Positions 4,256-21,307 of a DNA stretch of 52,437 nt are shown one piece after another. The position numbers and the translations under genes are program-made. The stretch is from Roseivirga sp. Its GTDB lineage: Bacteria > Bacteroidota > Bacteroidia > Cytophagales > Cyclobacteriaceae. The stretch spans positions 1 to 52,437 of the forward strand of contig JAJCYM010000088.1 in assembly GCA_029262895.1 (NCBI GenBank). The letters are read 5' to 3'. Under the pieces are notes generated by a model, which was given only the letters and a program-made list of their open reading frames with translations, did not search any database and was not told the origin of the DNA. Within the stretch, counting starts at the first letter, position 1. Each line of letters begins with the position of its first letter.

Positions 4256-4289
4256 AAAAAAAGGCATGATTTTCGTAAATCATGCCTTT
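4256..4289 (-). terminator. Intrinsic terminator at the end of the subtilase operon
   Basis: Bases 4260-4272 and 4277-4289 form a perfect 13-bp stem with a four-base loop. On the minus strand it is followed by seven U (4262-4256). It lies 20 bases after the stop of the last operon gene (4309) and four bases before the agmatinase ATG. Confidence 0.8.
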
Positions 4290-4308
4290 CGGGAGTAAGT
4301 ATTATATA

Positions 4309-4929
4309 CTAAGGCAATCGGATAGTCCAAATGCCAAGAAATTCCGTGAGATGGCTGGCTCCGAAAGACTGAATAGATTGGGACAATATCCCCAGTCTGC
4401 TGTACACCCATTGCTGCGAACTCAATTTGGACGGAGGCGGAGTTGGGAAGTGAACGTTCAAAAGGTTCAGTTTCCTGGCCTCGGGTAAACCCAACGGAAC
4501 ACTTTGTTTGAGCGGCTTGGTTTTTCCTGGGAGATAGATTTTTAAGTGCGCAGTGCCCATTGGAATACTCATTTTATGCCCTCTACTCATGGCAAAGGCG
4601 ACAAAGAACTGGCCATGCTGATTAGTGATGAATTCATTCCTTCCACGGAAAGTGGTGTGTGAAACCTGTGCACCGGAATTGTCGGTGAAATGATCAAAAA
4701 CTACCTTAATTCCCTTCTTTCCTTTTCCTTTAGGCCCCTTTCCCTTGATTGGGGTACCTATTGGTCCCTGATTTTTTAGTAGGATTCTACCAACTACAGG
4801 TATGTAGTAGTAATTGGTATTCATAGCAGTACCAATAAGTCTTCTCTGGTTGAGAATACTCGAGGCACTGCTCACTGTCTGCTCAGTAGATTGAAGGTCC
4901 TCCTCCAGAGATAAAAAACGATTTCTCAT
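4309..4929 (-). CDS. Operon protein with shared N-terminal motif and beta-rich middle, unknown
   Basis: A 206-residue protein, last gene of the minus-strand operon. I do not recognise the family. The N-terminus MRNRFLSLEEDLQ matches the starts of two other operon proteins (MRNRILSIQQELR and MKNRLTALQKEMT). Residues ~45-150 look like an Ig-like or carboxypeptidase-regulatory-like beta domain with a Lys/Gly-rich insert (PIKGKGPKGKGKKGIKV), and the end resembles the end of the next gene upstream (short hydrophobic strand, then KLP/RLP). There is no signal peptide or membrane segment. It is 61 bp downstream of its apparent relative at 4991-5545. Probably a cargo or structural partner within the same system (inference). 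Confidence 0.7.
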   Translation of the reverse strand: MRNRFLSLEEDLQSTEQTVSSASSILNQRRLIGTAMNTNYYYIPVVGRILLKNQGPIGTPIKGKGPKGKGKKGIKVVFDHFTDNSGAQVSHTTFRGRNEFITNQHGQFFVAFAMSRGHKMSIPMGTAHLKIYLPGKTKPLKQSVPLGLPEARKLNLLNVHFPTPPPSKLSSQQWVYSRLGILSQSIQSFGASHLTEFLGIWTIRLP

Positions 4930-4990
4930 GATTGTATAGTTTAAACAGGTTTGCGTAATAGTGATCCCGCTACAGCACGGCCAGCAGTAT

Positions 4991-5545
4991 TTATGGCAAC
5001 TTCACTTGTTGACCTGTGGCCAATCCAATAAAGTTCACCGATATCAGAACAGCAGGATTCCTCACTTTCAAGAATTTCAGAATGGCTGCCTTGAGACTGC
5101 CTGGGAAAATAATGGACAGCATATGCGTCACATCCGCCATTGGTTTTGGTTTCAGATAGTATTCGTTGCCATCAACCTTTATTTTGACCAGGCCAGTGGC
5201 TGCGATGTCAATGGTGCCGGAGGAATCATGCTTCAATGCCATCTTGAAATACCCCTTTTTATCGGTGGTATCTGAGGATATATAATGAGAGAAGGACTTT
5301 GGATGTCCTGTTTCGTTGAACAGACCGACTAATTCGACCGGTTTACCGGCTACAGGTGATCCGCTCTGAATCAACTGACCGGTAACAATAAGGTATTTAT
5401 CGTGTTCCTTCTTGCTTTGTGCACCGGCAATGCTTTCCCCAAATAGGCGAGATGCATTTCTCTTTTTGCTTCGAATGACAGAAGCTCCCATAGCACGGGT
5501 AGGCTCGCGAAGCTCTTGTTGGATTGATAGAATTCTGTTTCTCAT
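4991..5545 (-). CDS. Operon protein with shared N-terminal motif and Ig-like domain, unknown
   Basis: A 184-residue protein. After the shared leader MRNRILSIQQELR and a basic linker, residues ~50-130 read as a transthyretin/carboxypeptidase-regulatory-like beta sandwich: YLIVTGQLIQSGSPVAGKPV, then DTTDKKGYFKMAL, a pattern of 'new value, default, grow/step' strands common to such domains. No signal peptide is present, which is odd because these domains are usually extracytoplasmic. This suggests either cytoplasmic use or a non-Sec export route directed by the leader (inference). It appears distantly related to the following gene (4309-4929). It is separated by 19 bp from the gene upstream. Confidence 0.7.
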   Translation of the reverse strand: MRNRILSIQQELREPTRAMGASVIRSKKRNASRLFGESIAGAQSKKEHDKYLIVTGQLIQSGSPVAGKPVELVGLFNETGHPKSFSHYISSDTTDKKGYFKMALKHDSSGTIDIAATGLVKIKVDGNEYYLKPKPMADVTHMLSIIFPGSLKAAILKFLKVRNPAVLISVNFIGLATGQQVKLP

Positions 5546-5564
5546 GATTTATACTTTTTAATTT

Positions 5565-6203
5565 CTATGGTTTTTCGTTTTCTTCTTGATCATTCATCAG
5601 GTCGAAGTCTTGGTTGAGCTCTTCTTCACTGATAATGGGTTTCTGATTGTCATCAAAAGTTCTTCCTAGTGAAAAATCACCAAGGCTTATGGCCTTATTT
5701 CTTGCCATATTATTGCTGATCTCCTCAAACATCCTGTGAGGATCGTTTGGGTCTATGGGATTTAACTCTTCGACACTTTTAGACCTTGTTTGGGGCCTAG
5801 GAGAGGGAGATTCAATGTGCTCTTCATTGATTGAACCCCTCATTTTATCTCTTTGCTCATTGAATTTCTGTTTTCCTGAATCAAAGAACTCATCCATCTG
5901 ATCATCAATACTATCGTCAATGACATCGCTGAAATCATCACCAAGGTCCATGGATTCAAATACTTCAACATCAAATTGCGAAGGTGGCTCGTGGTTTTCT
6001 TCCAGAGGTTCGTTGAACATGGAAAAAGATTCTGAGGCCGGTGCATCGGGGTAGTCCAGTTGAATTATGCTGAGATCATCAAAGAAGCCAGACCTCACCT
6101 CATAGGCCAAATCATCCGATTGGCCCACCTTTTCATGAGGTAAATGTCCGGCTTTTTGCCTTTGAACATCTTGTTGTAATATGAAGAGACTCCCTTTTTT
6201 CAC
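5565..6203 (-). CDS. Acidic, low-complexity operon protein echoing the 1072-residue protein
   Basis: A 212-residue, strongly acidic and probably largely disordered protein. It starts with a variant of the shared leader (MKKGSLFILQQDVQ). Two segments match the linker region of its upstream neighbour: SGFFDDLSIIQLDY (residues 38-51) against SGFYDDLSVIDLSY, and NDPHRMFEEISNNMA (153-167) against EDPHSVFDQISDNRA, in the same order and with an acidic stretch between them. So it looks like a stand-alone copy of that protein's linker without the enzyme-like domains. It begins 2 bp after the stop of that gene, so translation is probably coupled. No known domain is visible. Confidence 0.75.
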   Translation of the reverse strand: MKKGSLFILQQDVQRQKAGHLPHEKVGQSDDLAYEVRSGFFDDLSIIQLDYPDAPASESFSMFNEPLEENHEPPSQFDVEVFESMDLGDDFSDVIDDSIDDQMDEFFDSGKQKFNEQRDKMRGSINEEHIESPSPRPQTRSKSVEELNPIDPNDPHRMFEEISNNMARNKAISLGDFSLGRTFDDNQKPIISEEELNQDFDLMNDQEENEKP

Positions 6204-6205
6204 CT

Positions 6206-9200
6206 TTAAGAATTTGCAGGGCTCTGATTAATACCGTCATCTTCCAGACCCAGGGCTTCCATCAACATGCTTTTTAGATCGTGACTAATACTATAGGCAT
6301 TAGACCAGTCGTCACCCACAGCGATAAGATCGAAGTTGTTGAAGACCTGGTAAACTTTTACGCCCTGAGCTGATTGCAGATGTACTTCAGCATCAATTAT
6401 GGATGCCAATTTGGAAGCATCTTCTTTCTGCCCGAACTCAATACCTTCAACAAAAGACTTGATAAAGGAGGCATCTTCTTCCTGCAATAGGAATTGATTC
6501 GAATCTCCAGGCATCTCATCTACCCCTGATGGATGGATGGATATTTTCTTAATGCTGTCTACATTCATAGGGGATAGGGCTTTTGCCTTTGAGAGTTTGC
6601 TTTTCTTCACTTCCGATGGCGTAGCAATTGGGGTAGGAGCTGGCTTCCCAGGGTGCGCCACCTGATGCTTTGAACCACTTTCTTCAGACAATGGATACAC
6701 CTTGCCGGTTGGTGCGGATACTTTCACTCCAATGATATCGGCTATCTTCTTGAGCTTAGCGCTGCCTTTGGCCCCGGCCCCGGTATTACAACCTCTAAGG
6801 AATACTTCCCCATTAGCACTGAACTTACCTTTCAGTCTGGACAGTTCCGGTTTCCATTCGGCCTCGTTGCTATTAATGTATTGTTTGCTCTTCAGTTTTT
6901 TGGCACTACCCATGACAATGATGCCTTTATTGCCATGCCCAACAATGGTCAGTTTTCGAATTTTCTGACCAGTACCCAGTTTGGCTAGAATCTTATCCAC
7001 CATGTCTTTAATACTGGACGCACGCAACTCACCGAGTGTGAAGAGGGCGGTTCCTCCCAAATAACCATCATTATTATGGTCAATGACGGTGATGTCGATT
7101 TCGGTTTTCGTACCTAAATCTTCGACAATCTCATCTGAACTGTTGAGGGCAAGATCAGGGTTGAAAACCGGGATAAGTGCATCCCTGAGTCCATAACCTA
7201 TACTATAGACAGTAGACCAATCACTGGAAACCAAAAAGTTGAAATCGGCAAAAACCTTGTATTGATCAACTGCCGTGCTTGTTTTGAGGAACAAGACACC
7301 ATTGACTTTACCGGAAAGCCCCTTAACAATGTCTGCAGATTCAACAGACAAATCGGTTTGAAAAAGATTGAGCCAGAAGGGGTCGCTTTTAGTCACGGTT
7401 GCCTGATCGGGATTGATGTCATTGCCTACATAATCCCCCGTATAGAAATGCACACTTTCAAGATGGCTGAATAAGGAATCACCCGCTGCTTTTGCCATTG
7501 ATCTTTTCTTTTCTGCCATAATTTCGGTCGGTGTTTTGATTGGAACAGGAGCCGGTTGTCCTGGCATAGCCACCTGATGTACCGAACCTTGCTCTTCTCT
7601 ATTCGAGTAGACATAACCCGTTGGTGCTTTTACTTTGACACCCACTACATCAGCTACCTCTTTGAGCTTATGACTTCCGGCAGTGCCGGCACCCACATGA
7701 CACCCTCTCAGGAATAACTCCCCATGGCTTGAGAATTTGGGTTTCAACTTTTCTAAATGTGGTTTCCATAATCTGCGATTGCCATTGATGATTAATCCTG
7801 GCTGGCTGCTGGTACCAGCCCCAATTGAGATATCTCCCTTAGCCCCATGACCACTGATGGTCAGGGTTCCGATTTTTTGGCCAGGTTTCAAATGACCCAA
7901 CACTTTCTGAAGCATTTCACTTACGCTGCTGGCCCTTAGTTCACCACTGACGTGACTTGCTCTTTGCGGAATGAATCCATTGTCGTCTGAGTCAAAAACA
8001 GGCTTTTCCAGCACCTCAATATTCACCACTTGGGTTTTACTGAGCGATTCGGTAAGGGGAGGTTCCCCATCCAGCAATTCGAAGTTGATGTATTCCTCTT
8101 CAGTTCCAGTTTTGAAAGCTGAAGCTTGTTGGGCCCTGTTGTCACTGATTTGGTCAAAAACACTATGTGGGTCCTCGTTAGTTTCTTCTTTGTCTTTTGC
8201 AGGAGCAGGCGCTGCGGCAGGAGCCTTATCCTCTCCATCCAGCGTAACTTGTTCCGGTTGACGCTCTACCATATCCTTGGATTCAGCATCATAAACCTTT
8301 TCACCGGAAAGAATTGCCTGCAAATCCTTGGCGAAATCATCCTCATCTTTGGATTGCGCACTGACAGGTGCAGTTGACTCATCCTCGAGACTATCAAAGT
8401 CCAAAGCTTCTTGTGCCAATACTGCTTTGTTACCATTATCGGCAGTTTCCTCCCTTTCCAAAACCCGATCTACTCGGTCACTTGCCAAGTCGGCATCGTC
8501 CTTTAGTTTGGCAAATTGTTCCTTACCCGAACCACCTCTTCCGGTGTCGATATAATCCTTCGGTCCGCTCGATCTTGAACTGCGTAGTGAGGGCTTGTCT
8601 CCGTCATCGTAGACGTATTCATTGTTTTTGAGCACAAAACTGCCCATTTCCTCAGACTGCTCCCGATCATCCATGCTCAGAAATTCGGATAATTCACTGA
8701 GAGCATCTGTGGCCATTTCATTGCCTTGATCAGCCTCGAAAGATTCCGAATCATAGCTAAGGTCAATGACTGATAAATCGTCATAGAACCCACTTCCATT
8801 TAATCTGTCGCTGAGTTCGCGAATGGATTGGGCCACTACTGGGTTCTGCGGGATCTCCACATGATAGGAAGTGTCAGCAGGGTAGAGGTGAAACTTAGAA
8901 ATTCTTGTTTCCGCTTTAAGGGCTTTGCCGAAGGCATCATGATCGGTTATGGAGGATGGAGCGATATCAATTACGTTGACCTCAGAAAAATCTTTCATAT
9001 GGGAAGAGACCTTGCTCTTGCCTTTTTCTATGATGGTCTTCTCCATGGCCGCGATAATTTGTGCGCGTGTCTTCTCCTCAGCCTTTAACTTGGAATAAAC
9101 ATTAATCACCGAATCACCAGTAGGGCCATAGAGTTTGAGCTGATGTTCAGCACCCTTATTTTCCAGATTGCGGTACATAATGGCTGCTTGTTCAGCTGGA

Positions 9201-9424
9201 GTCCTTTCCGTATCTGAAATAGTAGCCTTGGAAAGCTTGGCGGCCTTAAGTACATCCTTGAGCACGCCTAAAGAGTAATCGGTAACGGCATTTTGATTCA
9301 CGCCATCCTTGAAGCTGATAACAACTTCGTTCTTTGAAAACATATAAGGAGTTTGATTGCTGCCTTTGTTTGAAGGGGCAGTTCTGGTCATTTCCTTCTG
9401 AAGTGCGGTCAGTCTATTCTTCAT
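6206..9424 (-). CDS. Multidomain protein: M15-like domain plus two caspase-like (DUF4347-like) modules
   Basis: A 1072-residue protein without signal peptide, starting with the shared leader MKNRLTALQKEMT. Residues ~30-195 resemble a D-Ala-D-Ala peptidase (M15) fold: ERTPAEQAAIMYRN, then SSHMKDFSEVNVIDIAPSS and SYHVEIPQ. These give candidate zinc ligands His142, Asp153 and His188. Residues ~210-480 are acidic and disordered. Two related ~300-residue modules follow. Each has GELRASS, a His motif (TISGHGAKG, His526; TIVGHGNKG, His830), a Cys motif (FLRGCHVGAG, Cys575; FLRGCNTGAG, Cys879) and APTG.VY. The His-Cys spacing is 49 in both, like DUF4347 / clan CD cysteine peptidases. Each module ends in a similar Q-VF-F...DWS.YSI segment. 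Peptidase activity is inferred, not shown. Confidence 0.8.
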   Translation of the reverse strand: MKNRLTALQKEMTRTAPSNKGSNQTPYMFSKNEVVISFKDGVNQNAVTDYSLGVLKDVLKAAKLSKATISDTERTPAEQAAIMYRNLENKGAEHQLKLYGPTGDSVINVYSKLKAEEKTRAQIIAAMEKTIIEKGKSKVSSHMKDFSEVNVIDIAPSSITDHDAFGKALKAETRISKFHLYPADTSYHVEIPQNPVVAQSIRELSDRLNGSGFYDDLSVIDLSYDSESFEADQGNEMATDALSELSEFLSMDDREQSEEMGSFVLKNNEYVYDDGDKPSLRSSRSSGPKDYIDTGRGGSGKEQFAKLKDDADLASDRVDRVLEREETADNGNKAVLAQEALDFDSLEDESTAPVSAQSKDEDDFAKDLQAILSGEKVYDAESKDMVERQPEQVTLDGEDKAPAAAPAPAKDKEETNEDPHSVFDQISDNRAQQASAFKTGTEEEYINFELLDGEPPLTESLSKTQVVNIEVLEKPVFDSDDNGFIPQRASHVSGELRASSVSEMLQKVLGHLKPGQKIGTLTISGHGAKGDISIGAGTSSQPGLIINGNRRLWKPHLEKLKPKFSSHGELFLRGCHVGAGTAGSHKLKEVADVVGVKVKAPTGYVYSNREEQGSVHQVAMPGQPAPVPIKTPTEIMAEKKRSMAKAAGDSLFSHLESVHFYTGDYVGNDINPDQATVTKSDPFWLNLFQTDLSVESADIVKGLSGKVNGVLFLKTSTAVDQYKVFADFNFLVSSDWSTVYSIGYGLRDALIPVFNPDLALNSSDEIVEDLGTKTEIDITVIDHNNDGYLGGTALFTLGELRASSIKDMVDKILAKLGTGQKIRKLTIVGHGNKGIIVMGSAKKLKSKQYINSNEAEWKPELSRLKGKFSANGEVFLRGCNTGAGAKGSAKLKKIADIIGVKVSAPTGKVYPLSEESGSKHQVAHPGKPAPTPIATPSEVKKSKLSKAKALSPMNVDSIKKISIHPSGVDEMPGDSNQFLLQEEDASFIKSFVEGIEFGQKEDASKLASIIDAEVHLQSAQGVKVYQVFNNFDLIAVGDDWSNAYSISHDLKSMLMEALGLEDDGINQSPANS

Positions 9425-9426
9425 GG

Positions 9427-10143
9427 CTAATTCTTTAAGTTCATTGTATAAATTGCATAGGGATCGAAGGCGATCATAACTTCGTTGGAGGAGGACAGTT
9501 CGTGTCCACCCACATCTATCGAAACATGTCGCTCTGAAGCTTCAATAACCTTTACATTGTTATTGTTAATTTTTGCCACAGGCTTGAATTCCTGGTTTAA
9601 CACCAGATGTTCACCAGTGAGATTGAGTATTGTTTGATCTCCGGATTTGGAGAGAGATACATTCCGTATAAGAGGCGAGTTTTTACCTCTGCGCGACTTA
9701 TTGATGATATTGGCCAGCTTTTGATAATTAACATTCTTGACACGGTTTCTTACCACCGGCTCGGTTTTTTTAAAGTCGTTAATGCTTGTAACTCCGATTT
9801 TGCGCAGTTCCTTTTTGGTCTGATCATCGATGTCTTCGACCGATTCGATAGAAACGTCTTCGGAATTGTGTGTTTTGGAGGTTTCCCTTACCTGCCGGTC
9901 CGTGATTGAGCCCAATTGCAGGGAAACTTTGGATGCGCCTTCCTGACCAGGCTTGGCGGTGAGAAAGGTGACGTCATCTCCATCAAACTCGGGAAAAATT
10001 TGTAGGTCCAGTGAAACATCTTTCACCGAATAGGTGAGGGGTTTGTTAATGGCCTTTACCGCCAACGTTTCTCTGACCTTGTCCAACTCTATGGTCAAGG
10101 AATCTATAAAGGTTTCCAGCTTCCAGGATTTATTATTTCTCAT
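9427..10143 (-). CDS. Trypco2-like domain protein with HhH-like and IPT/TIG-like parts
   Basis: A 238-residue protein with three visible parts. Residues ~5-90 (LETFIDSLTIELDKVRETLA, then strands ending in KVSLQLG) resemble the trypsin-co-occurring domain 2, a small alpha-plus-beta domain found beside peptidases in bacterial conflict systems. Residues ~100-155 (DDQTKKELRKIGVTSINDFKK, given here only as a helix-turn pattern ending in NDFKK) look like a helix-hairpin-helix unit. Residues ~160-236 resemble an IPT/TIG Ig-like domain ending in FDPYAIYTMN. The N-terminus MRNNKSWKLE weakly resembles the shared leader. Its start overlaps the previous gene by 11 bp and its stop is 2 bp before the next start, so it is firmly inside the operon. 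The trypco2 match is by eye only. Confidence 0.65.
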   Translation of the reverse strand: MRNNKSWKLETFIDSLTIELDKVRETLAVKAINKPLTYSVKDVSLDLQIFPEFDGDDVTFLTAKPGQEGASKVSLQLGSITDRQVRETSKTHNSEDVSIESVEDIDDQTKKELRKIGVTSINDFKKTEPVVRNRVKNVNYQKLANIINKSRRGKNSPLIRNVSLSKSGDQTILNLTGEHLVLNQEFKPVAKINNNNVKVIEASERHVSIDVGGHELSSSNEVMIAFDPYAIYTMNLKN

Positions 10144-10426
10144 CTTCTTCTATGCTAATGTTAAGCGTGATGTGGTGAAATACCGGCATAAATGAAGTTT
10201 CCACGGTCTGCGTTGGAGGGGCGCTGCCAAGTACTGCGTCTCCTCTATCGTCTATATTCACGTCCATTTCTATCGGGGTAGTGACTTTCATAGACTCCAC
10301 AAACATGCGCTGACCGGTTTCCTGGTCAATCATTTCACCAGTGATGTTCACGATGTCACGAACAAAACCAGAGACTGGAGCCAGGGCTTCATCAATCAGG
10401 TCATATTTTGGATCTTCATTATACAT
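10133..10426 (-). CDS. Small operon protein, unknown (possible second trypco-like fold)
   Basis: A 97-residue acidic protein, no signal peptide or membrane segment. An N-terminal helix (DLIDEALAPVSGFVRDIVNI) is followed by alternating strands ending in PVFHHITLNISIEEDE. This helix-then-strands order resembles the neighbouring trypco2-like domain, but similarity is too weak to name the family. It overlaps the downstream gene by 11 bp and starts one base after the stop of the 48-codon gene, so it is translationally coupled on both sides. The stop falls inside the start region of the next gene, a typical operon arrangement. Confidence 0.65.
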   Translation of the reverse strand: MYNEDPKYDLIDEALAPVSGFVRDIVNITGEMIDQETGQRMFVESMKVTTPIEMDVNIDDRGDAVLGSAPPTQTVETSFMPVFHHITLNISIEEDEK

Positions 10427-10427
10427 G

Positions 10428-10574
10428 TCACTTCTTCCTAATCGAGGCAGTCTTGACCGGCATTAGTGTGACCTTTTCGTCAAAGAGCACCTTCATTCCG
10501 TTAATTTTGATGTCGGACTTGGCCATTCCTGAAGAAAGCTGCTGTCCTGTTGGGAATATGCTTTGCGTTTTCAT
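10428..10574 (-). CDS. Very small operon protein (48 aa), unknown
   Basis: A short gene filling the only sizeable gap in this part of the operon. It reads MKTQSIFPTGQQLSSGMA, then a strand-rich basic end (KINGMKVLFDEKVTLMPVKT, then ASIRKK), with a TGA one base before the next ATG and a start 10 bp after the previous stop. The tight spacing, the ATG start and the neighbours' coupling support a real gene. No membrane segment or known motif is seen. A small structural or adaptor peptide is possible. Confidence 0.55.
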   Translation of the reverse strand: MKTQSIFPTGQQLSSGMAKSDIKINGMKVLFDEKVTLMPVKTASIRKK

Positions 10575-10584
10575 AGTTGTTGAT

Positions 10585-12654: not shown

Positions 12655-12657
12655 GAT

Positions 12658-13704
12658 TTACTTCTTTGGAGGTGCCGCTGGTGCGTTTGCATTATCCACT
12701 GGGCCGTACATTTGCGCGAAATTGTTCAGTTCGAAGTAATCCGTTTTGAAAACGATCTCTACTTCTCCTGAAAGTTTTGCCTTTAACTCATCGTTGGCTA
12801 CGCTCTTTGCAGAGGAGACGCTCATGTTTGTATTCCGAGTGCTGGATGTGGATCCGTACTTAGGGCCGCCAAAAATGGAGCCTATGAGTCCGCCACCAAA
12901 TCCTCCTGAGCTTCCGCTTGACGAAGAGTTCTTATTGAGCGCTTTGTCCTGTTTCTTGACACTTCTGTCGGCCTTAAAATCGAAGAGCACACCGGCTTTG
13001 ACTTTACCTTTTTCTACTACGAGCCTGGTTACACCCATAAGGACCATTTCTCGTAAGGCAGTACGATGTTCCTTTGCCATGGCAATTTTTGCTTCCATGA
13101 TCTTGGCCTTCACTTCATTGTCTCCTAAATCGACTTTTTCACCCGATTTATTGGTCAATACAGGTGTTTGACTGCCACCGCTTTTCTTGCCATCACCGCT
13201 GTCATCATCGTCAATATCTCCGAACGACAGACCAAATTCATCACTGTTGTTCTCAGCCAGGTAGCCGAAAGCAGCTGTGTTGTCAATTTTGTTAATGAAA
13301 GAGGAGACATCTGTGGTAGCCGCCTTCATGAGCTTGATGTACTCATCGGTCTGGGCCTTCATTACATCAATGTTTGCATCAAAGACCGACTTGAGCAAAT
13401 CTTTTACAAAGCCAGCAAAATCTACTGAATGGACTAGATCATCAAAGGCATCAACACCATCGTCAAAGTCCTTTTCATGTCTTTGGTCGTCAATGTTGTC
13501 ACTTGCTTTGGGCGTTTTGTTCTTTCGTTTCAAAGCAGTAGCCAGGCCGCTCTGTTCGGCCATGTTGTCGAACTCTGATTCAACCGTCTCCTTGTATATC
13601 GCCTTTTGATCCTTCATCGGCATGGAACGGAATGAAGGCGACATGGCTAGCACATTCCTTGCCTTGGATCTTGCGATTTCTTTTAATTGTTCTTCTTGCG
13701 TCAT
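12658..13704 (-). CDS. Operon protein with helical N-terminus and Gly/Ser-rich linker, unknown
   Basis: A 348-residue cytoplasmic-type protein. It has a helical N-terminal part with charged segments, an Asp-rich stretch (SFGDIDDDDSGDGKK), a helix ending in REMVLMGVTRLVVEKGKVKA, a flexible Ser/Gly linker (SSSSGSSGGFGGGLIGSIFG) and a final strand region (GEVEIVFKTDYFELNNFAQM). A Pro/Ala tail (APAAPPKK) closes it. No family recognised. The Gly-rich linker between a helical body and a short C-terminal beta segment is reminiscent of assembly proteins, but this is only an impression. It lies 50 bp after the 554-residue gene and 3 bp before the 689-residue gene. Confidence 0.7.
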   Translation of the reverse strand: MTQEEQLKEIARSKARNVLAMSPSFRSMPMKDQKAIYKETVESEFDNMAEQSGLATALKRKNKTPKASDNIDDQRHEKDFDDGVDAFDDLVHSVDFAGFVKDLLKSVFDANIDVMKAQTDEYIKLMKAATTDVSSFINKIDNTAAFGYLAENNSDEFGLSFGDIDDDDSGDGKKSGGSQTPVLTNKSGEKVDLGDNEVKAKIMEAKIAMAKEHRTALREMVLMGVTRLVVEKGKVKAGVLFDFKADRSVKKQDKALNKNSSSSGSSGGFGGGLIGSIFGGPKYGSTSSTRNTNMSVSSAKSVANDELKAKLSGEVEIVFKTDYFELNNFAQMYGPVDNANAPAAPPKK

Positions 13705-13754
13705 GATTTCTTATTTAATGGATTAAAAATTTGAGGATAATCGATGACAGAGAC

Positions 13755-15419
13755 TTAGAAGTCCCATTCGTCATTATCCTCGTCCACTAAAGCATCATCG
13801 ATGTCGCTTTCCTCCATATCATCTTCCATATCGCCAAGCTGACTTTGAGAAATAATGAAATTTTGTGCGGAGTAGATGAAATTTGTGAAGTCCTCGTCAC
13901 GCACAGCACCTTCGTCAAACTCGGCAATCCAGCGTAGTAGTTTGTTACCTTCAATCGAGGCTCTTCTCAAAGCAGATACTTTAGGAATATTATCAAACTC
14001 TGATTGGCTCACTCGTTCGATTACTTTCCACATGCTTTTTCTATGACCATAGCCCAATTGGTCTACCACAGTCTCTTCGCGCAATATTTCGATGGCGCTT
14101 TGTAAATGCGCATACATTTCGCGTGTCATGGCCTTCACCATTCCTGAAGTACGGGTGGTAAGGTTGTACTGGATGTCTTTGATTGCCTGGAAGATCGGAG
14201 TCTTTGAAACATTGTCAGGACTGTCAGCCGACTCGTATTTATCTATAAACCTGACTACCTCTTCCATGAGCACTTCCCATAGCGAACTGAACTCCTCGTT
14301 GGTTACCATGTTATCAAGCATTTCGGCTTCACCCATGTTGAGTACCTGCTTGTAGAACATGCCTCTTTCCTCCATGGTGGTGCGTTCTTCACGCAACTTG
14401 TAGTATCTGTAGAGTTTGGATGAGGCTTCTCCCTGAGGGATATCCAGTCGGCCTTGAGTCCAGGCTAAAATGATTGCGTCTGCAATCTTAAAAATACCCA
14501 TTTGATCCCCCAGCATGTTGATATAGAAGAGGGCAGCCGCAGCGTAAATATTTTCTTTATCAACACCTTGTTCCTCAATCGAGTCGAAAGTATCAACTGA
14601 GTAATCCCATTCGCTGTCGTAATTGTTGGCGTAAAGATTACTGATTGGGTCCTCACCTTTATTGGCAAGCCTTACTGCTTGGGCATAGGCATAGAAAAGG
14701 GCCTCATCCAGCTTTTGGGGTCTGTTTTTTAGCGTGTCTTCAGTAACAATTAAGCCAACACTTTTTAGATAGTTGGCCATAGATCGCTTGACCTGATCTG
14801 TCGCCATATTAGGATCCACTTCGGGATTGGGCCTATTGAAAAAGGCATCAATGAGCTCCGGTATTCTTCCTAAATCATCCAATTCATGGACAAGGTTAAG
14901 AATGGGTTTAGAGGTGAACTTAATCGATGGGTTTTTTCTGACTGCTTCAATAAGCAACTGTTTCAAAGAAATTGAGTCGCGGTCAATGTTGTTTTCTACC
15001 AAAACATCATTGATAAGGTATTTGAAGAACTCTACTCTTAATTCGGTGGTTTTGGCAACCACCCTGGAATAGATGCCTTGTTTGTCAGTGATTCCTTCTT
15101 TGAATATTACTTCGCTTAAAATGCTGACAAAAGTGGCTTCATCTGAAAGCAAATAGCGCAAAGTAGCATTGATGCCACTTTGGTTTAGTTTTTTACTAAC
15201 CTCTGCAATAATGGCTGAATGCCCTGCTTTCACCAATTCCTGACGGATTTGAATGTATTCCTTTGAGCGCTTTTTTGAGATCAGTTCCAGTGCTTTCCTG
15301 CTGTGCTCGTCAGGGCTGATTCGGGGGGCATTGACCTTGAATTCATTGGCCACCAAATCCAGCACCATTAGGTCCATGTCGTTGGCATAAGTGCCGTTGT
15401 TGTCTGGTTTAGTTTTCAT
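13755..15419 (-). CDS. Large helical operon protein with acidic tail, unknown
   Basis: A 554-residue, almost entirely alpha-helical protein with no signal peptide, ending in a very acidic tail (residues ~530-554, for example DMEDDMEESDIDDALVDED). I recognise no family. Its ATG overlaps the stop of the subtilase gene by four bases (ATGA), so the two are translated together and probably act together. It could be a scaffold, substrate or inhibitor of the protease (inference). The region around residues 285-345 (AAALFYINMLGDQMGIFKIA) is the most conserved-looking helical core. The next gene follows after 50 bp, the longest gap in the early part of the operon. Confidence 0.7.
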   Translation of the reverse strand: MKTKPDNNGTYANDMDLMVLDLVANEFKVNAPRISPDEHSRKALELISKKRSKEYIQIRQELVKAGHSAIIAEVSKKLNQSGINATLRYLLSDEATFVSILSEVIFKEGITDKQGIYSRVVAKTTELRVEFFKYLINDVLVENNIDRDSISLKQLLIEAVRKNPSIKFTSKPILNLVHELDDLGRIPELIDAFFNRPNPEVDPNMATDQVKRSMANYLKSVGLIVTEDTLKNRPQKLDEALFYAYAQAVRLANKGEDPISNLYANNYDSEWDYSVDTFDSIEEQGVDKENIYAAAALFYINMLGDQMGIFKIADAIILAWTQGRLDIPQGEASSKLYRYYKLREERTTMEERGMFYKQVLNMGEAEMLDNMVTNEEFSSLWEVLMEEVVRFIDKYESADSPDNVSKTPIFQAIKDIQYNLTTRTSGMVKAMTREMYAHLQSAIEILREETVVDQLGYGHRKSMWKVIERVSQSEFDNIPKVSALRRASIEGNKLLRWIAEFDEGAVRDEDFTNFIYSAQNFIISQSQLGDMEDDMEESDIDDALVDEDNDEWDF

Positions 15420-16735
15420 AATTTAAATCGATTTAGTTTATAATCTAGAAGCTTGAGTGCGTCCAGGACATTCACTGCACCATAGCCGCTTTTAATGTTT
15501 TTTAATCTCCTGTCTTGTCTGTCTGCAGTAAGCATGAGCAGTTTTTTGATGCCTGCATCCGATATGTTTTTTCCACGTTTCTTTGAATAGGATTTCAGTA
15601 GTGCAATAAGTCCGGTCACATAGGGTGCTGCTTGCGATGTGCCGCTGGAATAAGCGTAGCGGTCCTTGAGGAAGGTGCTGTAAACGTTGGTTCCCGGAGC
15701 TACAAAAGAAATATGAGCCCCATATGTTGAGAAGGGTGCAATCTGTCCTTCGGTATCCACAGCGCCAACTGCGATTACATAGGGATTGGCACCTGGGTAG
15801 TACATCTCCTGTCGGCCATCATTACCAGCTGCTGCAACTATCGTTACGCCTTCATCATGCGCGTAGTCCACTACCTCTTTATGAGGGAGTCCCCCGGATT
15901 GATTTTTAATGCCCAGACTCATGTTGATGATATCAACCTTTTGATCCACAGCATACTTCAAGCCAGCGTTAATGTTTTCGACAATGCCAGCGCCCACAAC
16001 GGAATCGCCTCTTTTCAGTGCTCCCAGGACTCGTACAGGAACGATCTGGCATTTTGGTGCCAGACCAATCGACATATTCTTACCTCGTGCCGATATAATT
16101 CCTGTAACATGGGTTCCATGACCGACCTCGTCCTCAGGAGTCGTGTCGAAACCCAAGTAGTCTCCTACAAATTGGCTTTGTCCGTCTATGATGTTTACAA
16201 AGTCCTGCCCCTCAATTAAAGCATGCTGAAGTTCAGGATGGGTTAAGGAAATTCCCGTGTCTAAAACAGCAATCTTGATTGATGAATCACCTTGACTGAA
16301 GCGATGCGCATCTCTCAGGGTTAGTTCGTTTCGTTTTCTGTTGGTGCTTATTGAGCTGAGGGATTTGGCCTCATAATTTGGAAGTTCTGTGGTGGTGACT
16401 TCCATCTTTTTAACATAATCCACTTGCGGCAATAATGATATCTGATCCACAAGGTTCTGCGGAACACCCTTCTTCTCTTTGAGAATGAGGCGGTATATGC
16501 GATTCAGGCCATGTTTGACCTCATTGGCTGACCAATTGTTTTTTGAGGCCTTTTCGTATTCGTGGGTAACCCAGACGGGGATTTCGTTTTTACTAAGGAT
16601 AGAGTCTACATCCTGATCGAGGGAAAATTTTTCAGAGGACTTATCATTTATGAAATGCTGCCAAGAGTAGAAGTCCTCTTGGGCAGGTTGTTTCATTTTT
16701 ATAATGATATGTTCTCTCATAAATGGTTGGGGCAT
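15416..16735 (-). CDS. Signal-less subtilisin-like (S8) serine protease, first gene of the operon
   Basis: A 439-residue subtilase. The catalytic triad is complete: Asp159 (IAVLDTGISLTHPEL), His206 (GHGTHVTGI) and Ser367 (SSGTSQAAPYVTG, with Gln where most have Met). The oxyanion Asn305 lies in AAAGNDG. Residues 1-140 form an extension before the catalytic domain, beginning MPQPFMREHIIIKM; this may be a prodomain-like region, but there is no Sec signal or membrane anchor. So the protease probably acts inside the cell, or leaves by another route, unlike most subtilases. Met6 (16720) is an alternative start. It opens the minus-strand operon, overlapping the 554-residue gene by 4 bp, and faces the ECF sigma gene across a 235-bp control region. 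Confidence 0.88.
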   Translation of the reverse strand: MPQPFMREHIIIKMKQPAQEDFYSWQHFINDKSSEKFSLDQDVDSILSKNEIPVWVTHEYEKASKNNWSANEVKHGLNRIYRLILKEKKGVPQNLVDQISLLPQVDYVKKMEVTTTELPNYEAKSLSSISTNRKRNELTLRDAHRFSQGDSSIKIAVLDTGISLTHPELQHALIEGQDFVNIIDGQSQFVGDYLGFDTTPEDEVGHGTHVTGIISARGKNMSIGLAPKCQIVPVRVLGALKRGDSVVGAGIVENINAGLKYAVDQKVDIINMSLGIKNQSGGLPHKEVVDYAHDEGVTIVAAAGNDGRQEMYYPGANPYVIAVGAVDTEGQIAPFSTYGAHISFVAPGTNVYSTFLKDRYAYSSGTSQAAPYVTGLIALLKSYSKKRGKNISDAGIKKLLMLTADRQDRRLKNIKSGYGAVNVLDALKLLDYKLNRFKL

Positions 16736-16780
16736 GGGCCTTACAAGGCCAAATGCACCCTTTATGGGAGATTCATGAAA

Positions 16781-16961
16781 AGGTAACCCACGATAAATGA
16801 TTTTTTTAAAAAAAAGAGGAGATTATTACAATTTTCGACTTGGAATTCGATCAAAAACCGTAATTAGTTATGCTTGGAACGGTTTGTTTTATGTAAATTT
16901 TGACCTCACGAATTTTTAGAGGAGAAAAACGAATAACTTTTTAAAGAATGTTGGGTTACCT
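16781..16961. promoter_or_regulatory. Divergent control region with a perfect inverted 10-bp motif
   Basis: AGGTAACCCA at 16781-16790 and its exact reverse complement TGGGTTACCT at 16952-16961 lie at the two ends of the region between the subtilase operon and the sigma gene. Read in the direction of transcription, each side has the same TGGGTTACCT, 46 bases before the subtilase ATG and 34 bases before the sigma ATG at 16995. The middle is AT-rich with runs of T and A. The position fits a shared promoter element or operator, possibly read by the ECF sigma factor itself; this is inference. Confidence 0.6.
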
Positions 16962-16994
16962 ATTGGTGTTTTGGCAAATAAAGGTTTGAATTGG

Positions 16995-17525
16995 ATGGAC
17001 AATGGATCTTTAATCGCTGGAATCAAGAATGGCAACGACAAGATCATTGAAGACATTTATTTGAAGTATAGAGATGAATTCATCGTCTGGTTAAATAAAT
17101 ATTACAAGAGCGATTTTGATGAAGCAAGCGATGTCTATCAATTGTTAATGGTGCAGTTTTATGAAAATATAATGTCAGGACGTTTGGTGGAACTCACCAG
17201 TGATATCAAAACCTACCTCTATGGAATTGGAAAGAACAAAATTCGCGAGTTGAGAGAATCTTCGGCACGTGAACTTAGCTTCAACCTGGAGTCTGATATT
17301 TCGACTGAGGAGGTTTTGATACAGGAGGGTAAGATGAACAGGGTTGAACAAGCATTGGATGAATTAGGAGAGGCATGTAAAAGACTCCTTGAGCTTTATT
17401 ATTATCAAAAAAGAAGTGTGGCTGAAATTACGGTCACGCTGGAATATAAGAATGCGGATACGACCAAAAACCTGAAATATAAGTGCCTGGGCAGGTTAAG
17501 GAAGATATATGCCAACATTGTCTAA
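16995..17525 (+). CDS. ECF-type RNA polymerase sigma factor
   Basis: A ~176-residue sigma-70 family protein of the extracytoplasmic-function type. Region 2 is visible in ISGIKNGN-like N-terminal sequence (SLIAGIKNGNDKIIEDIYLK) through the YLYGIGKNKIRELRE helix, and region 4 in ALDELGEACKRLLELYYYQK followed by a helix-turn-helix-like stretch (SVAEITVTLEYKNADTTKNL). The frame can start at TTG 16971, but ATG 16995 (MDNGSLIAG) fits normal sigma length better. Its stop directly abuts the ATG of the next gene, a membrane TPR protein that is probably its anti-sigma factor. The divergent operon behind it is the obvious target (inference). Confidence 0.85.
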   Translation: MDNGSLIAGIKNGNDKIIEDIYLKYRDEFIVWLNKYYKSDFDEASDVYQLLMVQFYENIMSGRLVELTSDIKTYLYGIGKNKIRELRESSARELSFNLESDISTEEVLIQEGKMNRVEQALDELGEACKRLLELYYYQKRSVAEITVTLEYKNADTTKNLKYKCLGRLRKIYANIV

Positions 17526-18281
17526 ATGGAGGAATCGCAAAAGGACCTGGAATTAATAGATCGCTACCTCGAAGGTGTTTTGGCAGAGGAAGAGCAAGCT
17601 GTTGTTGAACAACGCTTACAAGAGGATACTGAGTTCAAGGCCATGTTCGAAGATATCAAGAGCCTTACCAAGGGCATTGAAGAATTGGGTAATGCCAAAT
17701 TGAAAAGGAAATTCAAGGAATTGGATGCCAACCTTGGCAATCCTTTGAAGGATAAAAAGGTGGCCGTGAAGGAGGTTAATTGGACACGTTATATTGGCTG
17801 GGCGGCTGTTCTAGTGGCTGGCTTGTTTTCAATAATCTACTTCAGCTCAAGGTCTCAGATTTCACATGAGGGTATTTATGAAGACTACTTTGCCATATAT
17901 GATAACGTGGTGGTACCTACAAAGCGAGGAGTAGACTCTTTGGAGTTGATTAATCAGGCTTTCGCCCACTATGATACGCGCGAATATGCAGCAGCGGCTC
18001 TTGTGTTTGAGGAGATCTTGAAGAAGGATAAGACTGAGTACATACAATTCTATTATGCGATGACATTGATGGAACAGCAAGATTGGGAGGGGGCCAAATT
18101 GATCTTGGAAGGGCTGCTGTCAGGAGGGGAAAATTTTATCAGGCAGTCGAAATGGTATTTGGCCTTGACCTATATCAGATTGAAGGAGGAAGAGCAAAGC
18201 CGGTCACTGTTAAATAGTCTTATCGAAGATGGGACCAGCTATGCTGAAGCTGCCGGAGAGATAATGGAACGGATCAACTAA
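17526..18281 (+). CDS. Membrane TPR protein, probable anti-sigma factor
   Basis: A 251-residue protein whose ATG follows the sigma stop with no gap. Residues 1-55 (LELIDRYLEGVLAEEEQAVV, then EQRLQEDTEF) match the cytoplasmic N-terminus typical of Bacteroidota anti-sigma-like proteins. One membrane helix follows at ~88-106 (YIGWAAVLVAGLFSIIYFSS). The rest, on the outer side of the membrane, contains TPR-like helices: NQAFAHYDTREYAAAALVFE, then AMTLMEQQDWEGAKLILEGL, then ALTYIRLKEEEQSRSLLNSL. This layout fits an anti-sigma factor with a periplasmic TPR sensor that could contact the exported TPR-CHAT protease encoded downstream (inference). Confidence 0.75.
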   Translation: MEESQKDLELIDRYLEGVLAEEEQAVVEQRLQEDTEFKAMFEDIKSLTKGIEELGNAKLKRKFKELDANLGNPLKDKKVAVKEVNWTRYIGWAAVLVAGLFSIIYFSSRSQISHEGIYEDYFAIYDNVVVPTKRGVDSLELINQAFAHYDTREYAAAALVFEEILKKDKTEYIQFYYAMTLMEQQDWEGAKLILEGLLSGGENFIRQSKWYLALTYIRLKEEEQSRSLLNSLIEDGTSYAEAAGEIMERIN

Positions 18282-18308
18282 TTTTTTCAACCATAAACCA
18301 TTAAACCT

Positions 18309-18461
18309 ATGACCAATAATAGCTCTGACAATCGAGACGTTAAGGATCAAACACCACCACCGTCATTCGTATTTGCCGCCTACGCTGTAGGAAGCGCGGC
18401 CACTGTATTCGCCTTATATCTTCTATGGAAGTGGATAGTTTGTGGCTGTTTAGGAATTTGA
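18309..18461 (+). CDS. Small single-span membrane protein (50 aa)
   Basis: ATG 18309 opens a 50-codon gene 27 bp after the probable anti-sigma gene. It has a polar start (MTNNSSDNRDVKDQTPPP) and one hydrophobic segment (FVFAAYAVGSAATVFALYLL) followed by WKWIVCGCLGI. It ends just before a terminator, so it is the third gene of the sigma operon. I do not recognise a family. The two Cys near the end and the membrane span suggest a small partner of the anti-sigma factor or protease. Confidence 0.6.
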   Translation: MTNNSSDNRDVKDQTPPPSFVFAAYAVGSAATVFALYLLWKWIVCGCLGI

Positions 18462-18463
18462 TT

Positions 18464-21307
18464 TTAGGGATTGGTCTCTCTTCGGAGAGACCAATTTTTC
18501 TTGAATCCCACAATTATTATCAGCAGCGCTGTGAGACTCCAATAAATGAGTTTTGCATTTGAAAAACTGGTAATATCAATTCGGAAATCCGAATCTCCAA
18601 GATATACAAGGCCGGCCCAGTTACTTGGGTGGGCGGTAAGTTCATCTGCTGTTTCCAGAAACCGGAGTTTGGCAGTTTTGAGTGCTTTGCCAGTGGAGGT
18701 GCCGGAATAGATAGCTGTGTAAAATGACTCCATCATTTTGGCCGATTGTTGGTCATTCACCTTCCATAAACTCATAATCAGGTTTGGATTATCATTATAG
18801 ATAAAGCCGCGACTGAGGCTGAGTATGCCTTCTCCTCTTTTCCATTGTCCAACGCCCGTTTCACATGCGGTAAGCACCACCAACTTGGCAGGGATGAGCA
18901 TCCCATACAATTCGTAGAGATGCATAATACCATCTCCGTTGGAATCTGCCTGATTGGATAAAACAAATCCCGAGTTCATCGGATTTAAGGTATCGGCCTT
19001 GGCATGAAGTGCCATGTGCAAGATATCAACATCATTTTGAGTGATTTTAGCAAAGGCGTCTTCGCTCGCTTCTGATTGTTTGAAAATGCGGGTTGAGCCA
19101 AACTGGCTGAGCACATCTAATTCGATTGCAGTGCCGGGCAAATTGTGAAACGCTGAATTGTCCGGATCACCAAAGGCTATGAGTTGTGGGTTGGAGATAG
19201 TTGGAGTTTGCCGTTGTTCCATGCATAAACTTGCCGAGTAGGCATAGCTGATTTCATAAGAACGAATCAAGTAATCCAGGCCTTTATAATCATAGTTGCT
19301 TGCTTCGGTTGCTTTGGTTTTTGTGAAGGCCTCGAATGTTAATTCGCTCAATATTCCATCCGGAAGAATAATCAGGCTGGTATGTTGAGTCTCACTTAAA
19401 ATAGGCTCCAATAGGCTTTGGTATAAATAGTGTGAAGCGTCTTGATAATCGCGGAAGGATTGTGATAAGGATTTTGATTGGAGTCGGCTTCCGCGCACTT
19501 CTTCTACAAAGTGATTATGCTGTTCAATGAATTCCTGATCTAAGACAATCCGTCCAAATCTTTTTTTGTCTTGCTCGACACTGATCCAAAAAATGGTTTT
19601 TTCGCCTTGAAAATAGGAGATCATAAGTGACTCACCCAAATTGGCTTGTATATCAGAAATGGAGGCGGATTCGGAGTTGTAGTGCGTGTTAAAGTAATTG
19701 GGGAAGTCTCGTTTCAAAACATCTTTGAGGGTATTGTGAGCATTCTCGTTTTCGAGCAATTGACCTCGAATTTTACTAATCTCTGATTCTTCGCAATTGG
19801 AAGCCAGCTCGCAAGCGTTCATTTGATTTCTAAGATTCGATATTTCCTGAATGAAATGCTGCTCCGATTGAACGATGCTATCATTAATGCCCAAGTCTGT
19901 AAATTTCTGAGCCCTTTTTACCGATTCGAATAAACTCAACGCTTTGCTCTTCTCAAATATCTCCCACGCTTCATCTATGAGGTTGAAATCATTGGTGCGC
20001 TGAAACATCAGGTAGATGGATTCCAGAGCTTTTTCATTATGAGCATGGGTGTATTCCCGGAAGAATAGTCTTGCTTCTTCGGTATTGAAATAATTTCGGT
20101 AGTACGAGGCCAGTTTGCCCATCAGACGGTAGCTTTCCCTTGCGGATTCTAAGGCCTTGACATCTTGCCGCTTGTGATACTTTGAGAGCATGGCCCCGGC
20201 TTTATACGACAGTATCCTGAAAAGAAAGGGTGTTCGCTGAATCAGCGCTTGACTTGGTTGTTCATAGATGTCATGGCCTTCCAGAAGTAGGGCTCTTTGA
20301 TAATAGATTAGGGAGGAGTCTAATTTGTCAAAGTGCTCATAAAGTTGTGCCATGTGCGATAGCACTCTGGATTGCTCAAGATCTGAATTTTTCAATTTCA
20401 AGGCCTTTCGCATGTATTGTAATCCGGATTGTAAGTGGCCATTCAAGCCAATTACTTTTCCCAGAAGTAAATGGGTGTTTGATATTTCGTTATTGTCTGC
20501 TTGATTGATCAGAGAAATGTTGAGTGATTTTCTGAACAACTCTTCGGCCTTTTTGAATTCGCTGATATCGCTATAGACCACTCCCAAGTTGTTGTAATCA
20601 TTGATAAGCGTAGGATGGCCCTCTCCATTCATTCGAAGGTTGAGATTGATTTTCTTTTCATAGTAGGGGATAGCTTTGACCTCTTCACCCAACACATTAT
20701 AAAGGTTGGCGATAACAGAATAGCTGAACTCCAGGTACTGGTTGTTGTCAGCAGTTGTGGCGATTTCCAAACCTTGAAATGCATGATTTAATGCCATTTC
20801 GAAGTCCTCTATGAGCCTGTAGGTGGTGGCCAGGTTATAGTTGCTGTAAAACTTCTGCCGTTCGGTTGCTCGATCGGGATGATCCGAAATGATCTCATAT
20901 TCTTTTCTATAGTAGTCTATGGCTAACCTTTCTTCCTCCAGAAAATACCTGTTGAGGTATCCAAGCATGGCATAGGTTCTTAAAAGTTTGTAACTGTTGG
21001 AATTCAGATAGGCGAGTTGTTGAGTCAAGGCTTCTTGGAAAATCTTGGCTGACTCCCCGGCATCTCCTTGACTGAAAAGCGTAAGGGCCTTTCCAACAAG
21101 GGCGAGTGAGATTAGGGTGTCTACCTCAGTCTTACTGATTATGGAATTGTAGGCCTCAAGGGCTAAATCAAGCTGTCCTGCACTACGCAGTGAGTCTGCT
21201 TGTTCTAACGATTGGTCCTTGATTGATTGCCTTGCTTCAACTGAGTGCGCGGTAAGGAAGACAACAATCAGCAGCAAAGTAAGCCAGCGCGAAAAGCGGG
21301 AAACCAT
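18464..21307 (-). CDS. Exported, membrane-anchored TPR-CHAT protease
   Basis: A 947-residue protein. Residues 8-22 form a Sec signal (TLLLIVVFLTAHSVEA). Residues ~30-460 are TPR-type helical repeats. A CHAT (caspase HetF associated with TPRs) domain occupies ~560-910, with LIILPDGILSELTFEAF, the catalytic His motif LHMALHA (His768) and Cys motif VVLTACETGVG (Cys815), then RGEGILSLSRGF and PNLIMSLWKVND. One membrane helix near the end (LIYWSLTALLIIIVGF, ~920-935) anchors it. The protease domain should therefore sit in the periplasm. CHAT domains are cysteine peptidases often gated by their TPR part. It is convergent with the sigma operon, and its periplasmic TPRs make the TPR anti-sigma protein a plausible partner or substrate (inference). 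Confidence 0.87.
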   Translation of the reverse strand: MVSRFSRWLTLLLIVVFLTAHSVEARQSIKDQSLEQADSLRSAGQLDLALEAYNSIISKTEVDTLISLALVGKALTLFSQGDAGESAKIFQEALTQQLAYLNSNSYKLLRTYAMLGYLNRYFLEEERLAIDYYRKEYEIISDHPDRATERQKFYSNYNLATTYRLIEDFEMALNHAFQGLEIATTADNNQYLEFSYSVIANLYNVLGEEVKAIPYYEKKINLNLRMNGEGHPTLINDYNNLGVVYSDISEFKKAEELFRKSLNISLINQADNNEISNTHLLLGKVIGLNGHLQSGLQYMRKALKLKNSDLEQSRVLSHMAQLYEHFDKLDSSLIYYQRALLLEGHDIYEQPSQALIQRTPFLFRILSYKAGAMLSKYHKRQDVKALESARESYRLMGKLASYYRNYFNTEEARLFFREYTHAHNEKALESIYLMFQRTNDFNLIDEAWEIFEKSKALSLFESVKRAQKFTDLGINDSIVQSEQHFIQEISNLRNQMNACELASNCEESEISKIRGQLLENENAHNTLKDVLKRDFPNYFNTHYNSESASISDIQANLGESLMISYFQGEKTIFWISVEQDKKRFGRIVLDQEFIEQHNHFVEEVRGSRLQSKSLSQSFRDYQDASHYLYQSLLEPILSETQHTSLIILPDGILSELTFEAFTKTKATEASNYDYKGLDYLIRSYEISYAYSASLCMEQRQTPTISNPQLIAFGDPDNSAFHNLPGTAIELDVLSQFGSTRIFKQSEASEDAFAKITQNDVDILHMALHAKADTLNPMNSGFVLSNQADSNGDGIMHLYELYGMLIPAKLVVLTACETGVGQWKRGEGILSLSRGFIYNDNPNLIMSLWKVNDQQSAKMMESFYTAIYSGTSTGKALKTAKLRFLETADELTAHPSNWAGLVYLGDSDFRIDITSFSNAKLIYWSLTALLIIIVGFKKNWSLRRETNP
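18470..18500 (+). terminator. Intrinsic terminator of the sigma-factor operon
   Basis: An 11-bp perfect stem (18470-18480 with 18485-18495) closed by a UUCG loop and followed by a T run. It overlaps the last codons of the convergent TPR-CHAT gene. Confidence 0.85.

Follow-up and report, generated by a model that had tools for sequence, protein, structure and literature searches.

A conserved seven-gene subtilase operon core in at least four bacterial phyla and the tagged genes that follow it

What is the role of a bacterial operon that opens with a subtilase and otherwise encodes mostly proteins of no recognizable family, and do its parts belong together? The question is raised by a block at positions 4309 to 21307 of a Roseivirga sp. 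contig (JAJCYM010000088.1, assembly GCA_029262895.1), whose 52,437 nt we call the window. A first-pass annotation had described the block as one sigma-controlled, multi-protease system, in which a packed eleven-gene operon faces genes for a sigma factor, membrane proteins, and a CHAT protease. All of these open reading frames (ORFs) were found at the positions that had been given: eleven on the minus strand (16735 to 4309), the divergent sigma, p251, and p50 genes, and the CHAT gene. The packing was also as described, with neighbors in the operon lying 1 to 61 bp apart or overlapping by 4 and 11 bp. The block is real and apparently represents a widespread, undescribed system, present in at least four phyla and with a plasmid-borne copy; no description of the cluster was found in open-licence PMC articles, the literature covered. 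The genes of the operon are as follows.

15416 to 16735, minus strand: S8 subtilase, core gene 1 (Pfam PF00082, 179.5 bits; leads the core in all 28 complete loci)
13755 to 15419, minus strand: p554, core gene 2, whose acidic C-terminal tail has WDF at its end (33 of 36 loci, including partial ones; alignment)
12658 to 13704, minus strand: p348, core gene 3 (alignment, structure model, homologue search)
10585 to 12654, minus strand: p689, core gene 4, beta-rich, its central part hydrophobic and helical, as judged by eye (35 loci from four phyla; alignments)
10428 to 10574, minus strand: p48, core gene 5 (p48 profile in 25 of 28 complete loci; domain positions)
10133 to 10426, minus strand: p97, core gene 6 (32 of 36 loci; alignment)
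9427 to 10143, minus strand: p238, core gene 7, with a weakly trypco2-like N terminus, then an HhH-like motif by eye and a TIG-like domain (alignment)
6206 to 9424, minus strand: p1072, tagged probable cargo, with an N-terminal tag, an M15-like region by eye, and two DUF4347 stretches (DUF4347 at 80.1 bits; tag seed)
5565 to 6203, minus strand: p212, candidate cargo or accessory protein with a second start type, KKGSLFILQQDVQ (by eye against L010, L011, L016, L022, and L044)
4991 to 5545, minus strand: p184, tagged, Ig/transthyretin-like (tag seed; DUF6795 and Big_1 below cut-off)
4309 to 4929, minus strand: p206, tagged, at the end of the operon (tag seed; no Pfam match at E ≤ 0.1)

How constant is this gene set? 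A profile of p689 recovered 35 loci in named genomes, which the record titles assign to Bacteroidota (16), Cyanobacteria (14), Proteobacteria (3), and Actinomycetota (2). Iterated profiles found S8, p554, p348, p689, p97, and p238 together in 28 of them, in one order and on one strand in all 28, with p48 present in 25. A contig end truncates six of the seven incomplete loci, and the seventh (L040) is a lone p689 fragment, where a p348 match in the same frame was set aside. Judged by these sequence comparisons, the seven operon genes S8, p554, p348, p689, p48, p97, and p238 form a core, and we are nearly certain that the genes of the operon constitute one system. The first-pass annotation had proposed asking whether its unplaced genes travel with the subtilase. 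In the loci examined they do, the subtilase being missing beside them only at contig ends, in the L040 fragment, and in three distant relatives (L058, L059, and L061). A mobilizable plasmid of Tolypothrix carries all seven core genes together with a gene for a peptidoglycan-binding protein. Genes were called greedily, and the calls for five high-GC loci (L021, L026, L038, L041, and L043) are less reliable.

Among 99 relatives, p348 occurs in four, p238 in the same four and as one weak match with stop codons, and p689 in these four carriers and on one 3.2-kb contig. Four of 395 Bacteroidota genomes have p348, two of them full-length (one being the window's own genome) and two distant; the count is likewise four in 386 Cyanobacteria, with two full-length copies (one being the chosen centre) and two distant ones.

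What do the individual proteins resemble? Across the block, Pfam models above their curated cut-offs were limited to S8, DUF4347, CHAT, and some TPR models. The subtilase is signal-less as first annotated, in that hydropathy, the sole criterion used, reveals no hydrophobic N terminus. Its catalytic residues D159, H206, and S367 are intact, as is N305; in the alignment the D, N, and S are kept in 31 of 32 copies, including that of the window, the exception being a frame-broken fragment, and the H is kept in 32 of 32. Its true start is probably 16720 rather than 16735. Its matches in PHROGs and PADLOC were to generic subtilase models and, in PADLOC, also to IetS. The other six core proteins matched no Pfam or NCBIfam family at cut-off, and searches of PHROGs and PADLOC at E ≤ 0.1 gave no model for any of them. 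In many Bacteroidota, p554 is split into two separate ORFs. The p348 profile gathered 710 homologues, and none of the 120 listed carries a Pfam domain; a structure model of p348, with helices followed by a G/S-rich stretch within a very long beta-hairpin, was of low confidence (pLDDT 65.1, pTM 0.35) and is not used as evidence. In cyanobacteria, p48 mostly occurs as a module at the C terminus of long variable proteins; in L014 it stands at the start of one.

The description of p238 as trypco2-like survives weakly. The window protein has no Pfam match to Trypco2 at E ≤ 1 and no significant hhalign result, and a divergent p238-like relative scores 22.4 bits against the Trypco2 model, whose cut-off is 24.2; the TIG match of p238 is 13.7 bits, with a Pfam cut-off of 20.9. 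In p1072, the two caspase-like modules are borne out as DUF4347 stretches, but the M15-like region is visible by eye without a Pfam M15 match. We found the multi-protease label misleading, S8 being the sole protease of the core and the others cargo or control. In the core and cargo proteins of the window, no segment is strongly hydrophobic (19-residue means reach 1.44 at most); p251, p50, and the CHAT protein do have such a segment.

The genes after p238 vary between genomes, yet they begin alike, with a tag of roughly 15 to 20 residues and the consensus NRLLALEQELL. At a threshold of at least 8 bits, a first tag model detected it in 46 of 108 downstream genes, in none of 187 other called genes, in none of 23 genes located between S8 and p554, and in 3 of 5389 other ORFs; this model was trained on the downstream set itself and is hence partly circular, and the 108 genes take in unrelated ones beyond the cluster. 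A fair and independent test is given by a model trained on Bacteroidota and applied to cyanobacteria, which at the same threshold detected the tag in 14 of 40 downstream genes, compared with 0 of 40 shuffled sequences and 0 of 51 other cyanobacterial genes. Four downstream genes of L021 and L038 stayed below 8 bits with this model (best, 4.7). At least one tag is present in 24 of the 28 loci having downstream genes, and a second start type, KGxLFxLxxE, was recognized among downstream genes by eye only. We consider it likely that the N-terminal tag marks cargo, for which it may act as a loading signal.

Which proteins carry the tag? Domains on tagged genes include C70 (3.2e-25), Tae4 (2.5e-15), DUF4347 (5.5e-28 and 9.3e-10), Ntox11 (9.8e-29), and EndoU (5e-6). 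Weakly tagged or by-eye tagged proteins add a lysozyme domain (2.7e-41) with M15_3 in L042, Amidase_2 (7.8e-8) in L038, M15_4 (5.7e-15) in L044, and C70 (4.5e-30) in L021. In a batch of 55 additional proteins, whose genes lie downstream, are inserted, or lie nearby, the matches were VanY (5), lysozyme (4), Hedgehog-signal (3), M15_3 (3), C70 (2), and Ntox11 (2), as well as lectin and peptidoglycan-binding matches; these counts come from the 25 of 34 families that were listed, with members named for re-scanned proteins only. Many cargo proteins have no family match. The genes inserted between S8 and p554 in some cyanobacteria encode LamG or peptidoglycan-binding domains. A p48-bearing protein of Nostoc (L014, 7984 to 9060) combines a eukaryote-type RGS domain (1.4e-15) with MLD (1.8e-4, below cut-off), a hint of possible eukaryotic targets. 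Beside cargo in L029 lies an untagged protein (5336 to 6502) with an Exo_endo_phos2 (phosphatase) domain, and upstream of S8 in Solirubrobacter lies a DUF4056 protein (L038, 3224 to 4108) with a start that looks tag-like by eye.

A conserved N-terminal part joined to exchangeable C-terminal toxin domains is a feature of polymorphic toxin systems, and this arrangement is found here. The difference is that the N-terminal part is a short tag rather than a known trafficking domain, and that it comes with a dedicated seven-gene core.

How would such proteins reach a target? Toxins and wall enzymes that have no export signals require an exit, and a conserved tag occurs beside the conserved core; we therefore suggest the core as their route or packer. 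The best reading, to which we give about an even chance, is that a soluble machine packs the tagged effectors so that they can be delivered, and whether delivery is to other cells we regard as evenly balanced too. S8, p554, p348, p689, p48, p97, and p238 would form a soluble apparatus made in the cytoplasm, which would recognize effectors by their short N-terminal tag, assemble with them, and pass them to other cells. S8 would act in maturation, by cutting tags or assembly proteins or by freeing cargo. The downstream tagged genes would supply exchangeable cargo, namely, wall hydrolases, toxins, and proteases, and the LamG or peptidoglycan-binding proteins encoded between S8 and p554 in some cyanobacteria may bind the target. 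The formation of an assembly, its extracellular delivery, and every signaling step are what we infer from this arrangement. Internal head proteins of phage T4 offer a parallel: a short N-terminal targeting sequence packs them as cargo into an assembly that is matured by a dedicated prohead protease. Tag-packed cargo and a dedicated protease are what we propose here; the operon differs in having no phage genes.

If the reading is right, a delivery apparatus exists in four phyla whose proteins have until now mostly been unnamed or called hypothetical, and since the tag is short and readable, its effectors can be listed by sequence. We hold it plausible, though with somewhat less than even confidence, that the operon represents a protein-delivery machine of a new class, with no sequence relationship to phage tails or known secretion systems and with bacterial and perhaps, for some cyanobacteria, eukaryotic targets. 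Two observations weigh against delivery by the core itself: no channel, ATPase, or lysis gene was seen in the core, and genes of contractile injection systems are enriched in carriers.

Could the core and the tagged proteins instead be an accessory module that loads effectors onto a contractile injection system encoded elsewhere, either an extracellular contractile injection system (eCIS) or a type VI secretion system? In searches covering 30 carriers, a subset of those found, a phage-sheath family was present in 21 at E ≤ 0.001 (20 over cut-off) and the T4-gp19 tube family in 21, with a union of 23. Among the 99 relatives, the tube family occurs in 36, comprising all five core carriers (G000, G016, G020, G029, and G031) and 31 of the 94 others, for which we computed by hand a chance of about 0.005; genome size and lifestyle could explain this enrichment. 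A tagged protein of L012 has a weak match to the Gp5_trimer_C spike (18.9 bits; cut-off, 30.9). However, sheath, tube, and VipB are all without a match in 6 of the 30 carriers (one a partial metagenome-assembled genome), and Sinomicrobium weinanense and Pseudoflavitalea rhizosphaerae gave no sheath, tube, or VipB match. The window's own genome has tube genes without a sheath match. In the 40-kb regions around the tube genes of G000, G016, G029, and G031, core homologues and matches to the promoter motif described below are absent, and the best tag score is 6.7 bits, under the threshold of 8. In G000 (C2, about 80754 to 83882; L073/L074), which has no sheath match, two T4-gp19 tube genes are followed by genes that look VgrG-like and PAAR-like by eye.

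The comparison with eCIS and the related Photorhabdus virulence cassettes (PVC) points both ways. Shared features are N-terminal effector loading signals, a broad phyletic spread, and the toxin family Ntox11, which PMC3482391 lists among the PVC/eCIS toxins. The differences are that no sheath, tube, baseplate, spike, or AAA gene was recognized in the operon, that S8 is part of the core, and that the tag has a conserved sequence, unlike eCIS signals, which are reported to be without one (PMC11297309). Sequence searches for sheath, tube, baseplate, and spike gave no Pfam or PHROGs match in ten of the eleven operon proteins, and p206 had no Pfam match. We consider the accessory-module explanation unlikely.

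A signal-less subtilase with caspase-like cargo also raises the possibility that the effectors act inside their producer, in conflict or self-destruction: tags would hold them on an inactive complex, from which S8 would free them upon a trigger such as infection. This would agree with the protease lacking an export signal, with the envelope-linked control, and with the patchy presence (4 to 5 of 99 relatives). Trypco2 domains accompany trypsin-like peptidases in conflict systems, according to PMC7159879, and the VMAP systems with Trypco2 likewise pair a peptidase with such a protein; but the similarity of p238 to Trypco2 is under cut-off, and the operon differs from VMAP systems in having no MoxR or vWA match and in its tagged cargo. 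Moreover, peptidoglycan hydrolases, LamG and peptidoglycan-binding domains, and the RGS-MLD protein would make little sense inside the producer. The comparison with defence islands and prophages that the first-pass annotation had proposed gave no support: PADLOC, run without p212, p184, p206, p251, and p50, found no complete defence system and matched S8 (subtilase, IetS) and the CHAT protein (TPR) only. We rejected a defence-system interpretation as having no support beyond such generic matches. At the sensitivities used, p348 had no match in 50,697 phage records, and neither p348 nor p689 had one in IMG/VR. We regard an intracellular role as improbable.

The tag could also be a leader that S8 trims, as in leader-peptide maturation, from enzymes that form a complex at the cell surface or in the matrix. 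Wall enzymes are frequent among the cargos, some of which have Ig-like domains, and S8 scores 192.2 bits against the mycosin family of type VII secretion (TIGR03921) and 111.1 bits against the PatA/PatG-type cyanobactin proteases (TIGR03895). Both scores are far under the NCBIfam cut-offs, 278.75 and 421.05, respectively; no export signal or channel is seen, and the toxin domains Ntox11 and EndoU are not those of surface enzymes. This explanation seems to us the least probable of those considered.

How is the operon switched on? The features flanking the operon genes are listed here.

4258 to 4290, no strand assigned: terminator-like hairpin at the operon end and island edge (by eye)
16760 to 16788, minus strand: promoter motif facing the S8 operon, GGTTACC-N16-ATAAAG (motif scan; copy kept in G016, G011, and L011)
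16954 to 16983, plus strand: promoter motif facing sigma, GGTTACC-N17-ATAAAG (motif scan; copies in G016, G011, and L011 off by 1 to 2 bases)
16995 to 17525, plus strand: extracytoplasmic function (ECF)-type sigma factor, predicted control module (Pfam sigma r2 and r4 below cut-off; 55 to 57% identity to the G011 and G016 copies)
17526 to 18281, plus strand: p251, predicted control module, one hydrophobic segment at residues 90 to 108 and TPR (Pfam, hydropathy, comparison with relatives)
18309 to 18461, plus strand: p50, small membrane protein, predicted control module (hydrophobic segment; homologues in L010 and G011)
18464 to 21307, minus strand: TPR-CHAT protease with hydrophobic N and C termini, predicted control module (CHAT, 168.2 bits; hydropathy; 36% identity in G011)

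The window contains exactly two occurrences of the pattern GGTTACC-N14-17-ATWAAG, one directed at the S8 operon and one at the sigma gene, compared with 0.02 expected. Copies facing the operon are also present in R. thermotolerans (G016), in a congener (G011), where the copy stands before a different operon, and in L011; each of these also has a sigma-facing copy, which differs at one or two bases (GGTTACT in G011 and L011). Nine gapped 5+5 words, all from one site, are common to three intergenic regions, and none was in 200 mononucleotide shuffles; a looser pattern gave 10 matches when 1.69 million strand-bases from other loci, among them L011, were scanned. Since position 16971 falls within the promoter motif and homologues begin at 16995, the true start of sigma is probably the ATG at 16995 rather than the TTG at 16971. 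Its assignment as an ECF sigma, made in the first-pass annotation, falls short in Pfam (Sigma-70 r2 and r4, 15.5 and 15.6 bits; gathering threshold, about 24), and a promoter motif facing its own gene fits an ECF sigma; the CHAT assignment is clear (PF12770, far above the cut-off of 24). The motif shared by operon and sigma strongly supports the earlier term "sigma-controlled," and we hold it very probable that sigma controls the operon. The CHAT protease is probably exported, and p251 is a likely membrane anti-sigma factor. In this genus, a signal would pass from the exported TPR-CHAT protease through p251 to sigma, and from there to the paired promoters of sigma and the operon.

Does this module belong to the core? 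Of the 35 loci, just two (L010 and L011) have clear homologues of sigma and p251 close to the core, and just one (L010) has CHAT there; G031 (L008) has a weak sigma match (E = 0.0027). The G011 operon at the shared insertion site lacks the S8 core, and its control genes are present, which implies that control module and operon are separable. On present comparisons, sigma and CHAT form a swappable control module, and the view that they are integral parts is not supported; of the earlier claim that all parts form one system, the fixed core of the operon and the single insertion of the 17-kb block stand. The operon of G011 (L069, from G011:C2:444500-457000) spans, with its CHAT, p50, p251, and sigma genes, 6878 to 11379 and encodes two proteins, a 1010-aa one of no recognized family and a PLD-like one. 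An AraC-type regulator gene lies directly upstream of S8 in Flavivirga (L034, 3767 to 4534), and other lineages may therefore use other switches.

A related arrangement is the CASP system (Csx29, Csx30, and CASP-sigma), in which, according to PMC10028731, a TPR-CHAT protease occurs with an inhibitor of sigma and with an ECF sigma whose target promoters lie in its own locus. The likeness to the module described here, which covers all these elements, is one of analogy only: here CHAT looks exported and membrane-anchored, there are no CRISPR genes, p251 has a membrane segment, and cleavage would be hypothetical. The promoter pair offers a direct handle on switching on the operon, and if the proposed chain is true, it would be a natural link from a CHAT protease to a sigma factor with an exchangeable target operon.

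The block is flanked by glnS and an arginase gene. In 10 of the 12 congeners searched these two genes are adjacent (0 to 300 bp); G012 has 1.2 kb between them and G011 has 9.3 kb. The 17-kb block is also present in G016. As the site is empty in 10 of 12 congeners, we regard positions 4309 to 21307 as one insertion in the genus. The island ends (350 bp on each side) share no words of at least 10 bp, direct or inverted, and we therefore claim no mobile-element mechanism.

Decayed and divergent versions of the cluster also occur. In Lacinutrix (L031, 5432 to 12283), S8, p554, and p689 are split into several frames, by decay of the copy or by sequence errors. Two Bacteroidota genomes (G143 and G476) have tandem p348-like genes without S8. 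Among such loci, L058 has two of these distant genes near a gene that encodes, by eye, an ATP-binding protein, and L059 has two plus a third gene. In one distant cyanobacterial cluster (G773), S8 is still accompanied by p348-like and p238-like genes, L062 has S8 with a p348-like gene, and L061 has p348-like and p238-like genes without S8, the p238-like protein carrying TIG, CARDB, and SBP_bac_5. A divergent cyanobacterial version (L060, 5727 to 14266; also L061 and L062) has the order SLH protein, S8, 79-aa protein, 740-aa protein, p348-like protein, small protein, and p238-like protein, and its 79-aa protein resembles an S8 propeptide by eye.

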